Assembly: GCF_030159895.1 (NCBI RefSeq)
Contig: NZ_BSNI01000002.1
Coordinates: 2,506,306-2,570,305, forward strand
Direction of reading: 5' to 3'
From: Maritalea porphyrae
GTDB lineage: Bacteria; Pseudomonadota; Alphaproteobacteria; Rhizobiales; Devosiaceae
Length of the DNA: 64,000 bases
Positions 40,220 through 58,108 of this stretch are shown here, one piece after another (the first letter of the stretch is position 1; each line of letters starts with the position of its first letter). The notes under the pieces are model-generated. The model ran no database searches, was not told the DNA's origin, and worked only from the letters and a program-made list of their open reading frames with translations. The translations under genes and the position numbers were made by a program.

Positions 40220-40334
40220 TGCCACACAACTCCCTCAATTTGCCGCCTTTAGCCACTCACAACCGGTGACCCCGCATATCGAACGATTCCACAACCAAAA
40301 CGCCAAGTAAAGCGTTTTACTCGCACACTGTGGA

Positions 40335-40362
40335 TTGCATTTTGTAGAATCGAACCTATATT
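40335..40362 (+). promoter_or_regulatory. Candidate promoter of ssrA
   Basis: TTGCAT (40335-40340) and TATATT (40357-40362) are 16 bp apart and would start transcription near 40369, at the expected 5' end of the tmRNA acceptor piece. Confidence 0.5.
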
Positions 40363-40369
40363 AGAGGTG

Positions 40370-40700
40370 CTGGCAACAGCTATGGCGATAAATCGCGATC
40401 GTAATAAACCATTCGGACCCGGGGGCGGTACCCGGCGCCTCCACCAAAACATCTAATGCGATGCTAAAGCATAAGATTTTGGGGGCGAAATAGGATCGAC
40501 GAGGGTGTAAAAGGTTTGCTTTCGCTCGGCATGGTACCACCGCATCGGGCCATTATGATAGTTGCAAATGACAACTTCGCTGAGGCACGTCTGGCTGCGT
40601 AATGCGGTTCGACACCTCGAATTGAAGCCCTATTCCCCTAGCAGGGTCTAGGCGGGGTTCGCAGGTACCTGGCAACAGAAACCTGCACTCATTTTTTACC
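40370..40700 (+). ncRNA. ssrA: Transfer-messenger RNA, circularly permuted two-piece form
   Basis: tmRNA frees stalled ribosomes and tags the peptide for proteolysis. Here the 3' acceptor piece is encoded first (about 40370-40446, ending CGCCTCC-ACCA). A spacer of about 34 bases follows, then the coding piece from 40481 (GGGGGCGAAATAGGATCGAC). GGGGGCG (40481-40487) pairs with CGCCTCC upstream of the terminal ACCA to make the seven-base-pair acceptor stem, which proves the permuted order. The tag frame at 40564-40602 reads ANDNFAEARLAA then TAA. A hairpin with GCAGG/CCTGC followed by ATTTTTT (about 40658-40700) ends the transcript. Exact processed ends are estimates. Confidence 0.93.
40658..40700 (+). 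terminator. Intrinsic terminator of ssrA
   Basis: A GCAGGT/ACCTGC stem with a 14-base loop is followed by ACTCATTTTTT. The stem may overlap the 3' end of the tmRNA coding piece. Confidence 0.65.
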
Positions 40701-54635: not shown

Positions 54636-55505
54636 ATGACCCTTGAACAAATCTTTGTCCCGATGTCCAAACAAGACGCATTTGCCCTGGCCGACGCGGT
54701 AATGGAAGAGTTTGGCTTGGCGCTTTCCGCCTCAGCCTTTGAAAATGAGAATGGCGACTGGGTGTTTGAAGCAACGTGCGATCAAAAGCCTGACGTTGAG
54801 CGCTTCAACGAACTGGCGCAACGTGTTTTGAACGGCAAAGTTGAATTCACCATCGGGCAAGTGCCAGATAAAGACTGGGTCGCCCACTCACTTGAAGGGC
54901 TGTCGGCAATCGACACAGGTGAATTCTTTGTGCATGGAAGCCACGAAGAAACACCTATTCCTGATGACAAGATCGCCATCAAAATAGATGCGGGCCAAGC
55001 CTTTGGCACCGGCCACCACGAAACCACTACGGGTTGTTTAGAAGCCGTATCTATCGTGGCCAATTCTGACCTCGCACCAAAAAAGATTCTTGATTTGGGA
55101 ACTGGCACCGGCATTTTGGCAATTGCTGCCGCAAAACGGTTAGATCAGAATGTGCTGGCGACAGACATTGATGCCAAGGCAATTGAGGTGACGGCTGAAA
55201 ACACCGAAATCAATGGCGTTGCTGACAAAATAGAAACCGCGGTCGCCACTGGCATGGATCATGAAATCTTTGCACAACGCGGACCCTTTGATTTGGTTTT
55301 GGCCAATATTTTGGCCGGGCCACTGGTAGAGTTGGCACCTGATATTGCCAAACACACCCATGAAGGCAGTGTGGTTGTGCTAGCCGGGCTTTTGAACCGT
55401 CAGGCTGACGGCGTGATTGAAGCCTATGCCAAAAACAAAATCGCCCTTCTCGAACGTGTCGAAAAGGGCGATTGGACAATCCTAAGATTGCAACGTGAGG
55501 CGTAA
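54636..55505 (+). CDS. prmA: Ribosomal protein L11 methyltransferase
   Basis: A 289-residue enzyme that methylates ribosomal protein L11 using S-adenosylmethionine. The cofactor motif is ILDLGTGTGILAIAAAKR and the catalytic part DLVLANILAGPLVELAP; DAGQAFGTGHHETTTGCLE is the family signature. Its start is 12 bases after the helicase stop, so the two form an operon. The stop is three bases from the end of the first of three small convergent genes. Confidence 0.95.
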   Translation: MTLEQIFVPMSKQDAFALADAVMEEFGLALSASAFENENGDWVFEATCDQKPDVERFNELAQRVLNGKVEFTIGQVPDKDWVAHSLEGLSAIDTGEFFVHGSHEETPIPDDKIAIKIDAGQAFGTGHHETTTGCLEAVSIVANSDLAPKKILDLGTGTGILAIAAAKRLDQNVLATDIDAKAIEVTAENTEINGVADKIETAVATGMDHEIFAQRGPFDLVLANILAGPLVELAPDIAKHTHEGSVVVLAGLLNRQADGVIEAYAKNKIALLERVEKGDWTILRLQREA

Positions 55506-55508
55506 ACC

Positions 55509-55655
55509 TTAGAAGCTGTTGCGTGAACGCTCTTCGTTCAACAAATTGCGGTAGCCATGTGTTTCCACAAAGCGAGCAACTTCGCGCTCAGCGTGCTTAG
55601 AACGTGATGTTACGATTGCGTCCATTACGTTGCGGAAGAAACCAGATTTAGCCAT
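55509..55655 (-). CDS. Small basic paralog A (48 aa), function unknown
   Basis: An open frame of 48 codons with AGGA eight bases before its ATG. It encodes MAKSGFFRNVMDAIVTSRSK, continuing with HAEREVARFVETHG. It shares the core FFRNV-DA-V-SRSKHAER-VA-F with the next gene. An amphipathic helix is likely. I do not know the family; it is too short for most gene callers. It is the nearest of three copies to prmA, which it converges on. Confidence 0.8.
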   Translation of the reverse strand: MAKSGFFRNVMDAIVTSRSKHAEREVARFVETHGYRNLLNEERSRNSF

Positions 55656-55694
55656 TTTGTGCATCCTAAAAAAGTGTGGCGATTACGCCAAAAA

Positions 55695-55838
55695 TCAAAA
55701 GCCGTTCAAACGATCATTGTTGATCGCTTCGTGTCCGTGGGTTTTCAAAAAGTTTGCAACCTGGCGCTCAGCGTGTTTTGAGCGAGAAGAAACCATTGCG
55801 TCTACTACGTTGCGAAAAAATCCAACTGTCTGTGCCAT
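55695..55838 (-). CDS. Small basic paralog B (47 aa), function unknown
   Basis: An open frame of 47 codons, with AGGAG six bases before the ATG. It starts MAQTVGFFRNVVDAMVSSRS and continues KHAERQVANFLKTHGHEAI. It is identical to paralog A at about 26 of 47 positions; differences fall mainly at the C terminus. The three genes face the same way on the minus strand and look like tandem duplicates kept by selection. Confidence 0.8.
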   Translation of the reverse strand: MAQTVGFFRNVVDAMVSSRSKHAERQVANFLKTHGHEAINNDRLNGF

Positions 55839-55991
55839 ATTCGTCTCCTACAATTTCCACCAAAAGTGGGGTTGCTTTTTTGAATTCGTGAAACCAATGT
55901 AGCGCAGTAAAATTTTTTAGGTAGAGCTGGAAACGCACCACAGCCATGCGTTTTTGGAATACCGATAGACCAATACAAACGGAGACATGCA

Positions 55992-56022
55992 AAACGCGCC
56001 GCTTTGAACAAGCTGCGCGTTT
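55992..56022 (-). terminator. Hairpin between small paralogs B and C
   Basis: AAACGCGC/GCGCGTTT with an inner AGCTT/AAGCG-like pairing forms a long stem. On the minus strand it lies about 30 bases after gene C and is followed by TTTGC, a short T-run. It may terminate gene C, which would give genes A and B a separate promoter. Confidence 0.5.
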
Positions 56023-56054
56023 AAAAATCGGATAGAATAATGTGAAATGGCTGT

Positions 56055-56189
56055 CTATAGCGTGTGATTTTTGGTGAAATCATGGTGCTCTGCTTCCACG
56101 ATGTGGTCGATATCATGTTCAACCGCTTTCGAGCGTGAGTTCATGATTGCAGCAAAAATATCGCGTACAAATTCAAATGGCTTAGCCAA
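56055..56189 (-). CDS. Small paralog C (44 aa), diverged
   Basis: An open frame of 44 codons starting with TTG and a perfect AGGAGG six bases upstream. It encodes AKPFEFVRDIFAAIMNSRSK after the initiator, then AVEHDIDHIVEAEHHDFTKN. It keeps F-R(D/N)-AxI/M-SRSK-E but has lost most of the C-terminal identity and gained several histidines. It is the most diverged of the three tandem genes. The strong ribosome binding site supports expression despite the unusual start codon. Confidence 0.7.
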   Translation of the reverse strand: MAKPFEFVRDIFAAIMNSRSKAVEHDIDHIVEAEHHDFTKNHTL

Positions 56190-56278: not shown

Positions 56279-58108
56279 ATGTTTAACAATGACGGCTCAA
56301 TTCAATTCCAACAATTTGATGAAAAAGCTGACTCAACCCAAGTTCTGCCGCGCCTAACTGCATTGCGCGCCGCGCTATCTGCTGCAAATGTGGATGCCTT
56401 TATTGTCCCGCGTGATGATGCGCACCGCGGTGAAAACGTTCCGGCGGGTGACGAACGCCTTGCCTATATGACAGGCTTTACCGGGTCTGCAGGCTATGCA
56501 CTTGTAACCAAAGACCGCGCGGCTCTCGTGGTTGATGGGCGATACACGATCCAAGCGCCAGCGCAAACAGATACCGACCACATTGAATGCGTCGACATGA
56601 AGCCAGATGCTGCACAAAAATGGTTAGTTGATGCGCTTGAAGCCGGAAGCAAAGTCGGGTTTGACGGTTGGCTACATACACCGAACGCCATCAAAACGCT
56701 GCGCGAGGCTTTGGCAAAAGCCGAAATCAATCTGGTTGAAACCAACAACTTGGTTGATGAAATTTGGACAGACCGTCCTGCCCCGCCAACCGACAAGATT
56801 TTTACATTGTCGTTGGATCAAACAGGCAAAAGCGCTGCGGACAAAGTGAGCGATCTGATCAAGACAATTGAGGAACGCGAAGCCGACGCTCTCGTTCTGA
56901 CTTTGCCAGAAAGCTTTTGTTGGTTATTCAACATTCGCGGCTCTGACATTCCAAATACGCCGGTGACACTAGGCTTTGCGATCATCGAGAAATCTGGCAA
57001 AGCAACACTGTTCGTGCAACCTGAAAAGATCACTGCCGACGTTCAAAATGAACTTGGTGACGTGGTAGCACTGCGCCCGATTGGCGACTTAACCGGTAAC
57101 CTTGCAGAACTTGCACAAGACAAGACCATTTGGCTAGACGGCAACACCTGCCCTTCCAAATTGGCCAACATTGTCACCGAAGCTGGCGGCAAACTAGTCA
57201 ATGAAGCTGATCCAGTTCTCAAAATCAAATCACGTAAAAACGCTGTAGAAATTGATGGCATGAAAGCCGCTCAGCGGCTTGATTCAGCCGCGATGGCGAA
57301 GTTCTTGTCTTGGCTTGACGCCGAAGCACCAAAAGGCGAGTTAACCGAAATCGCTATCGTCAAACAGCTTGAGCAGATACGTCGCCAGGCCAACTCTCTC
57401 GTCGACATCAGCTTTGAAACCATTTCAGGCTCAGGCCCAAATGGCGCGATTTGCCACTACCGTGTTACTGAAAACTCAGATCGTCGCCTTATCCCTGGCG
57501 AATTGATGCTGGTCGATAGCGGTGGTCAATATCGCGAAGGCACAACTGACATTACCCGCACCATGGCCACTGGCCCTGCAACAGCAGAGCAAAAAAAGCA
57601 CTTCACTTTGGTGCTCAAGGGCATGATCGCTCTTACTCTAGCAACATTCCCAAAAGGCACGACCGGCTCGCATCTGGATATTTTGGCGCGTCAATTCCTG
57701 TGGGCAGAAGGTCTTGATTACAATCACGGAACCGGTCATGGCGTCGGCGCTTTCTTGGGCGTACACGAAGGGCCATGCGGCATCTCTCCACGCTATACAG
57801 CACCACTTGAAGTCGGCAACATCATCTCAAATGAACCGGGTTACTATTTGGAAGGTAGCCACGGCATCCGCATTGAAAACCTGATTGTTGTTGTTGAAAG
57901 TGACAAGGGCACCAAAGACCAGCCATTCTATAGCTTTGAAACCATCACTTTCACGCCAATCGACACGCGCTTGATCGACAAAAGCTTGATGACGGAAACT
58001 GAAATCAACTGGCTGAATGACTATCACAAAAAATGCTACGAGATCGCAGCGTCACAATTGAGCGATAGTGACAAGGCGTGGTTGGCGAGCGCGACAAAAG
58101 CGATTTAA
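56279..58108 (+). CDS. Xaa-Pro aminopeptidase (aminopeptidase P, M24B)
   Basis: A 609-residue three-domain aminopeptidase P, the long form shared with eukaryotes. It removes the N-terminal residue before proline. Metal ligands are visible in LMLVDSGGQYREGTTDITRT, HGTGHGVGAFLGVHEGP and NEPGYYLEGSHGIRIEN. The first two domains (1-330) have the creatinase-like fold. Likely cytoplasmic. It is divergent from the three small genes. Confidence 0.95.
   Translation: MFNNDGSIQFQQFDEKADSTQVLPRLTALRAALSAANVDAFIVPRDDAHRGENVPAGDERLAYMTGFTGSAGYALVTKDRAALVVDGRYTIQAPAQTDTDHIECVDMKPDAAQKWLVDALEAGSKVGFDGWLHTPNAIKTLREALAKAEINLVETNNLVDEIWTDRPAPPTDKIFTLSLDQTGKSAADKVSDLIKTIEEREADALVLTLPESFCWLFNIRGSDIPNTPVTLGFAIIEKSGKATLFVQPEKITADVQNELGDVVALRPIGDLTGNLAELAQDKTIWLDGNTCPSKLANIVTEAGGKLVNEADPVLKIKSRKNAVEIDGMKAAQRLDSAAMAKFLSWLDAEAPKGELTEIAIVKQLEQIRRQANSLVDISFETISGSGPNGAICHYRVTENSDRRLIPGELMLVDSGGQYREGTTDITRTMATGPATAEQKKHFTLVLKGMIALTLATFPKGTTGSHLDILARQFLWAEGLDYNHGTGHGVGAFLGVHEGPCGISPRYTAPLEVGNIISNEPGYYLEGSHGIRIENLIVVVESDKGTKDQPFYSFETITFTPIDTRLIDKSLMTETEINWLNDYHKKCYEIAASQLSDSDKAWLASATKAI

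Follow-up and report, generated by a model that had tools for sequence, protein, structure and literature searches.

Small genes between prmA and an aminopeptidase gene in Devosiaceae: an unannotated family with a predicted LsrB/VtlR-type promoter and possible kinship to DUF1127

The analysed window, a stretch of 64,000 nucleotides, contains three small genes on the minus strand: gene A (55509..55655; ATG start, 48 aa), gene B (55695..55838; ATG start, 47 aa), and gene C (56055..56189; TTG start, 44 aa). They are flanked by two genes of the plus strand. On the side of A lies the convergent gene prmA, encoding ribosomal protein L11 methyltransferase (54636..55505; PF06325, E 9.9e-58), and on the side of C the divergent gene for an M24 (Xaa-Pro type) aminopeptidase (56279..58108; PF00557, E 2.4e-53), termed pepP here, whose product also has a Creatinase_N domain. 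These Pfam assignments confirm the location given in a preliminary description of this DNA. The latter had also reported three same-strand frames of 48, 47, and 44 codons, each preceded by a ribosome binding site, and was correct in this respect: RBS-like stretches are present before A (TTTAGGATG), B (TAGGAGAC), and C (GGAGGAAA), that of A being AGGATG and that of B AGGAGAC. An alternative in-frame ATG of gene A is located at 55664, three codons upstream. Genes A and B represent, respectively, the prmA-proximal and the pepP-proximal copy of the pair usual at this place, and C is a diverged extra copy. Orthologues of A were found at two further loci (L014 and L015). Gene A begins 39 nt after gene B, and the two are probably co-transcribed. 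Elsewhere in the window, at 40331-40689, a tmRNA gene of the alphaproteobacterial two-piece permuted type, with the tag ANDNFAEARLAA, was identified by ARAGORN.

The products of A and B share 61-65% identity over the aligned part. Their close similarity had been recognised before, with a slightly lower figure of about 55%. Gene C is diverged from both. Its TTG start is supported by the Maritalea porphyrae orthologue (L014/L109), which has an ATG at the aligned place. Divergence and TTG start had been described correctly, as had the richness of C in histidine (5 of 44 residues); the orthologue, however, contains only 2 histidines, and this trait is therefore not conserved. Both the divergence and the histidine content of C are local features of a gene found in two genomes only.

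Comparison of A, B, and C with Pfam, NCBIfam, and PHROGs revealed no family above noise (best E 0.078). Plasmid and phage collections were searched with B; the matches had E-values of 3 to 8 and were rejected. The three genes gave no match in Rfam, and nothing was found at E 0.1 when nine related loci, among them that of lsrB, were searched against Rfam.

M. porphyrae is placed in the Devosiaceae, order Hyphomicrobiales; we infer that genus g1 and family f1 of our genome set are Maritalea and Devosiaceae, respectively. The Devosiaceae sample consisted of 30 of the 96 prmA matches listed (L013-L042, the window included). Members of the small-gene family are present at 29 of these 30 prmA loci, that of the window among them, and a tandem pair occurs at 27; L026 and L036 have a single member. 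At all 29 member-bearing loci, the pepP-proximal member is flanked by prmA and pepP, both of which have the opposite orientation. At L035, no member was found beside prmA, and both copies are located beside pepP on another contig (L004). Gene C is present at two of the 30 loci, that of the window and that of M. porphyrae. The PrmA protein of the window is 86% identical to that of the M. porphyrae comparison locus L109, which is identical in DNA to L014 of the same-genus genome G301.

The dN/dS values determined against M. porphyrae (NG86) are 0.10 for A and 0.13 for B. The same comparison for C gave a pN of 0.263 and a pS of 0.855, with dS saturated; the evidence for C is weaker than that for A and B. 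In the family-wide comparison, mean pN and pS of the prmA-proximal copy (43 aa, 21 loci) were 0.058 and 0.377, and the pepP-proximal copy (44 aa, 14 loci) was looser (pN 0.327, pS 0.617). A and B are real genes under protein-level constraint, not products of chance. The earlier proposal of a conserved family of small proteins with a genuine role, for which a search for syntenic homologues and an analysis of substitutions had been suggested as checks, is thus supported on both counts, by homologues with conserved synteny and by purifying selection.

Relatives outside the Devosiaceae were searched for with two profiles, A2, built mostly from pepP-proximal copies, and A4, built from longer outside relatives. 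Among 397 genomes of the order, 130 were matched by profile A2 (E ≤ 0.01) and 201 by profile A4 (E ≤ 0.001). In the class sample, A4 matched 19 of 385 genomes; two of these (G000 and G082) are from the order, and the other matches were weak (best E 1.6e-7). Among the best 11 A2 loci outside Devosiaceae (L098-L108), nine have both prmA and pepP as neighbours, L108 has prmA only, and L106 neither. Another 39 outside loci were hand-picked from the A2 matches to spread over families; L148 of this set is the same locus as L106. Both neighbours were present at 26 of them, prmA only at three, pepP only at one, and neither at nine, the last number being counted against the interpretation favoured below. 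The 26 loci with both neighbours come from 18 families; at each of them, the small gene is flanked by prmA and pepP and runs in the opposite direction to the two. One Devosiaceae locus, L152, was added to the 39; among the sampled loci, no protein could be read at L140 and L144. A, B, and C belong to an unannotated family whose genes, across the order, are often located between prmA and pepP. In the literature consulted, mainly open-access, no mention of a small gene between prmA and an aminopeptidase gene was found.

Several genomes carry additional small genes of similar appearance. In genomes of one genus of family f44 (g73), the number of matches reaches five. Genome G416 encodes four paralogues of 44-49 aa (MNFFNRAFEKVISAREEQAQRYV...; L148-L151), of which only that at L150 adjoins prmA and pepP. 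A second type of small protein, about 70-80 aa long, with a similar helix and an [LM][ST]DxxER tail, was seen at L008, L011, L120, L130, and L135; neither prmA nor pepP was found at these five loci.

The conserved part of the Devosiaceae proteins is an N-terminal helix with the pattern FFxRAxDAxVExRxRxAERyV. In 27 of 36 outside relatives this helix is followed by an LDDxxLxxLG-like segment (more fully, LxxLDDxxLxxLGxxRxel-like), in which they resemble DUF1127 proteins; the segment is absent from the other nine, which belong to families f21, f23, f42, and f44. In profile comparisons, A2 matched A4 over the N-terminal part (98.5%, E 1.5e-15), and A4 matched DUF1127 over the C-terminal LDDxxLxxLGYxRxEL part (91%, E 1e-6), a match that speaks for the segment-bearing subset only, since A4 was built from such members. 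Its alignment comprised 25 of the 36 outside proteins, all having or nearly having the DUF1127-like segment; the nine proteins without it (L098, L113, L121, L122, L123, L126, L129, L141, and L150) and two near-duplicates (L103 and L107) were left out. The DUF1127 alignment (A5) contained 20 of the 30 DUF1127 proteins read.

The Devosiaceae profile itself did not match that of DUF1127, and A, B, and C gave no hit to PF06568 (gathering score 23.3 bits) at E-values up to 10. The best outside relative scored 23.1 bits against this cut-off, and only two of the 25 A4 proteins touched PF06568 at E ≤ 1, a result that weighs against the favoured interpretation. The C-terminal LxxLxxRxLxDIGIxRxDI segment of DUF1127 is absent from A, B, C, and the other aligned Devosiaceae members. 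As the direct profile match failed, the Devosiaceae proteins were not filed under DUF1127, a family (PF06568) exemplified by the SDPs of A. tumefaciens, the VtlR targets of Brucella, CcaF1 of R. sphaeroides, and YjiS of E. coli. The small genes described here share with DUF1127 their size, tandem occurrence, basic character (A and B), and an LsrB/VtlR-type promoter such as precedes the DUF1127 pair of this genome. Unlike DUF1127 proteins, their products have a conserved N-terminal helix in place of the PF06568 match and the C-terminal segment. Arginine makes up 14.6% of A, 8.5% of B, and 4.5% of C, compared with about 14% on average in DUF1127 proteins (PMC12501420). The net charge of C is -3, which, together with its lack of an upstream box, was also counted against the favoured interpretation.

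The AlphaFold model of B is one long helix with an FF-containing N-terminus (mean pLDDT 66, low confidence). That of an outside protein consists of a helix at residues 18-47 and two short helices (mean pLDDT 68, likewise low), with a pLDDT of 86 in two of the ten-residue blocks of the long helix. Amphipathicity was dropped as a stand-alone argument, the shuffle p-values being 0.35 for A and 0.16 for B. The most likely history is descent from a DUF1127-related ancestor, with the second part lost by Devosiaceae and by some members outside them. Alternatively, the second segment may have been gained in the other lineages.

The sequence before B contains the 15-nt box GCATGGCTGTGGTGC (55935..55949, minus strand), which fits the published LsrB/VtlR-type consensus GCAT-N3-TG-N3-T, and a predicted -10 hexamer, CTACAT (55897..55902, minus strand), beginning 47 nt from the first base of the box. 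Among the six Maritalea (g1) loci, the sequence upstream of B is conserved in the region around GCATGGCTG. The VtlR-binding motif is given as CAATGCAGCCATGCA in the accessible text of PMC12595884, and its reverse complement starts with TGCATGGCTG. For LsrB, the accessible part of PMC8844928 reports the above consensus at positions -61 to -49. The box before B lies at the distance expected of an LsrB site (some 48 nt ahead of the first base of the -10 element) and is a predicted binding site. No LsrB-type box was found before A itself, nor in the upstream sequence of C.

Across the Devosiaceae loci, the exact consensus occurs before copy 1 (pepP-proximal) at only 16 of 29 loci, a count that speaks against the favoured interpretation and where several promoters begin with TCAT, and before copy 2 (prmA-proximal) at 14 of the 21 loci with room for a box. 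Its frequency in background tiles, which include the sites themselves, was 54/1098. When box and -10 element were scored together, using a consensus derived from the six g1 loci, which are not independent of it, values of at least 16 were obtained for copy 1 at 26/29 loci and for copy 2 at 8/21, against 0/1783 control windows; the box between the two copies scored at least 14 at 18 of the 21 loci with room. Among 40 further promoters (39 outside ones and the Devosiaceae locus L152), 16 scored at least 15, L152 not being one of them, versus 13 of 3071 control windows. Nine of the 40 were no better than shuffled sequences at the 0.05 level, another point against the favoured interpretation. These 40 promoters were taken from the 26 outside loci with both neighbours, L152, eight of the 11 best A2 loci, and five other loci, L114 and L131 (prmA only) and L148, L149, and L151 (neither neighbour). 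Seven loci were left out of promoter scoring: L106 (represented by L148), L120, L130, L133, L135, L136, and L146.

Within the genome of the window, the box pattern with one mismatch had 42 matches, compared with six for the reversed control. Most of the 30 matches inspected were set down as apparent coding noise, and the -10 spacing was therefore added to the search. The exact consensus combined with CTAYNT at the right distance was found at three sites (reversed control: 1): before B, before a tandem pair of DUF1127 genes, and once inside reading frames; the last site was set aside for this position. The DUF1127 pair (L073/L074; G000:C2:1955905-1956490, minus strand) has before its first gene the box, a CTACTAAAAAAATTT stretch, and a -10 element in the layout seen in B and its Maritalea relatives. 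No exact box is present before the third DUF1127 gene of this genome; the locus of A, B, and C is separate from all three. The exact consensus is present in only six of the 30 DUF1127 promoters that were read in the order, and the box is thus not typical of DUF1127 genes in general. An exact GCATGGCTGNNNTGC box was also seen at L043 (G000:C2:1708856-1708870, minus strand), before a gene recognised by eye as DEAD-box-helicase-like. The start of this gene is 173 nt downstream of the box, which is followed by a CTTGAC -35-like hexamer. Judged from these elements, the helicase-like gene is a possible further LsrB target.

A gene for a LysR-type regulator adjoins trxB in the same genome. The best PDB match of its product is 9HH1 (E 3e-112), the A. 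tumefaciens LsrB structure; the gene is an lsrB orthologue. Across Rhizobiales, lsrB and trxB are described as a consistent operon. Activation by VtlR/LsrB has been reported for three Brucella genes of the DUF1127 type (PMC12595884) and for Agrobacterium atu1667, an orthologue of two of them, and the sRNAs AbcR1, VrsA, and NfeR1 are among the targets of this regulator. A search for AbcR (RF02345), a known LsrB target, gave no match in the genome of the window, the controls of that search being silent as well. The known regulon (abcR1, atu1667, vrsA, and nfeR1) and the present case have in common the GCAT-N3-TG-N3-T box at a similar distance from the -10 element and the position of lsrB beside trxB. 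They differ in that a gene between prmA and the aminopeptidase gene was not found mentioned in the regulon literature consulted and in that the box before B is a predicted site.

On balance, we consider it fairly probable that A, B, and C encode small regulators with kinship to DUF1127 and are under predicted LsrB control. The redox-responsive LysR regulator LsrB/VtlR would bind the box before B and activate the B-A transcript, with C lacking such a box. The products would be largely one-helix proteins of about 5 kDa, those of A and B being basic. A and B may then act in the manner of the LsrB/VtlR-controlled DUF1127 small proteins, as regulatory adaptors whose acidic partner would be a sensor kinase, such as PhoR in the case of A. 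tumefaciens DUF1127, or RNA, as with CcaF1. DUF1127 proteins of both A. tumefaciens and E. coli have been reported to bind PhoR, and R. sphaeroides CcaF1 to bind RNA (PMC12501420). The second segment would have been lost in Devosiaceae and in some members from a few further families, and Devosiaceae would have kept the helix as a tandem pair. The acidic, box-less gene C, known from two genomes, may have drifted to another role or may be decaying. We lean, by a narrow measure, towards the broader view of an order-wide, LsrB-controlled family of Hyphomicrobiales, located between prmA and pepP and forming a sister group of DUF1127, with single-helix proteins in Devosiaceae and some others, tandem copies in Devosiaceae, and a separable function of the helix. 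The core helix, the locus, and the protein make-up differ from those of the known DUF1127 case; the predicted regulator and part of the segment are shared with it.

The lack of a direct DUF1127 profile match for the Devosiaceae proteins would also suit a real syntenic family whose function is unrelated to DUF1127, which has a membrane or other partner, and for which the box is shared wiring only. The same reading could draw on the single long helix with an FF-containing N-terminus predicted for B, on the restriction of the DUF1127 match to the C-terminal segment while the Devosiaceae and outside forms have the N-terminal helix in common, and on the nine outside members without that segment. 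We regard it as rather unlikely: three quarters of the outside members (27/36) do possess the DUF1127-like segment, and one promoter layout is common to both gene groups in this genome. A regulatory role of the B-A transcript as RNA, with the peptides being secondary (a dual-function sRNA/mRNA), seems improbable. Small RNAs are among the LsrB/VtlR targets, and the authors of the atu1667 study, as far as its accessible text goes, leave protein versus RNA action undecided; the changes, however, are concentrated at synonymous sites, as seen for copy 2 at 21 loci, and the small genes have no Rfam match.

Since copy 1 and pepP are transcribed divergently from a common intergenic region at the family loci, the box might be thought to serve pepP and not the small genes. 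Box, spacing, and -10 element are, however, oriented towards the small gene, a second box lies between copies 1 and 2, away from pepP, at most of the loci with room for it, and in the window C is interposed between box and pepP; this possibility is very remote. Chance open reading frames, suggested by the shortness of the frames and by the absence of a family in the libraries searched, can practically be dismissed in view of the synteny at 29 of 30 family loci and the dN/dS values of A and B. This explanation is refuted for A and B and, less strongly, for C, by its M. porphyrae orthologue.

If LsrB-controlled small regulators related to DUF1127 are indeed encoded here, the redox-responsive LsrB/VtlR regulon gains an unannotated syntenic gene family; in the accessible literature, the small-protein output of this regulon is DUF1127. 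Since Devosiaceae keep one part of the longer form, they would offer a natural dissection of which part binds what. For annotators, the positional rule prmA-X-pepP would provide a means of finding genes that are missed by Pfam and NCBIfam.
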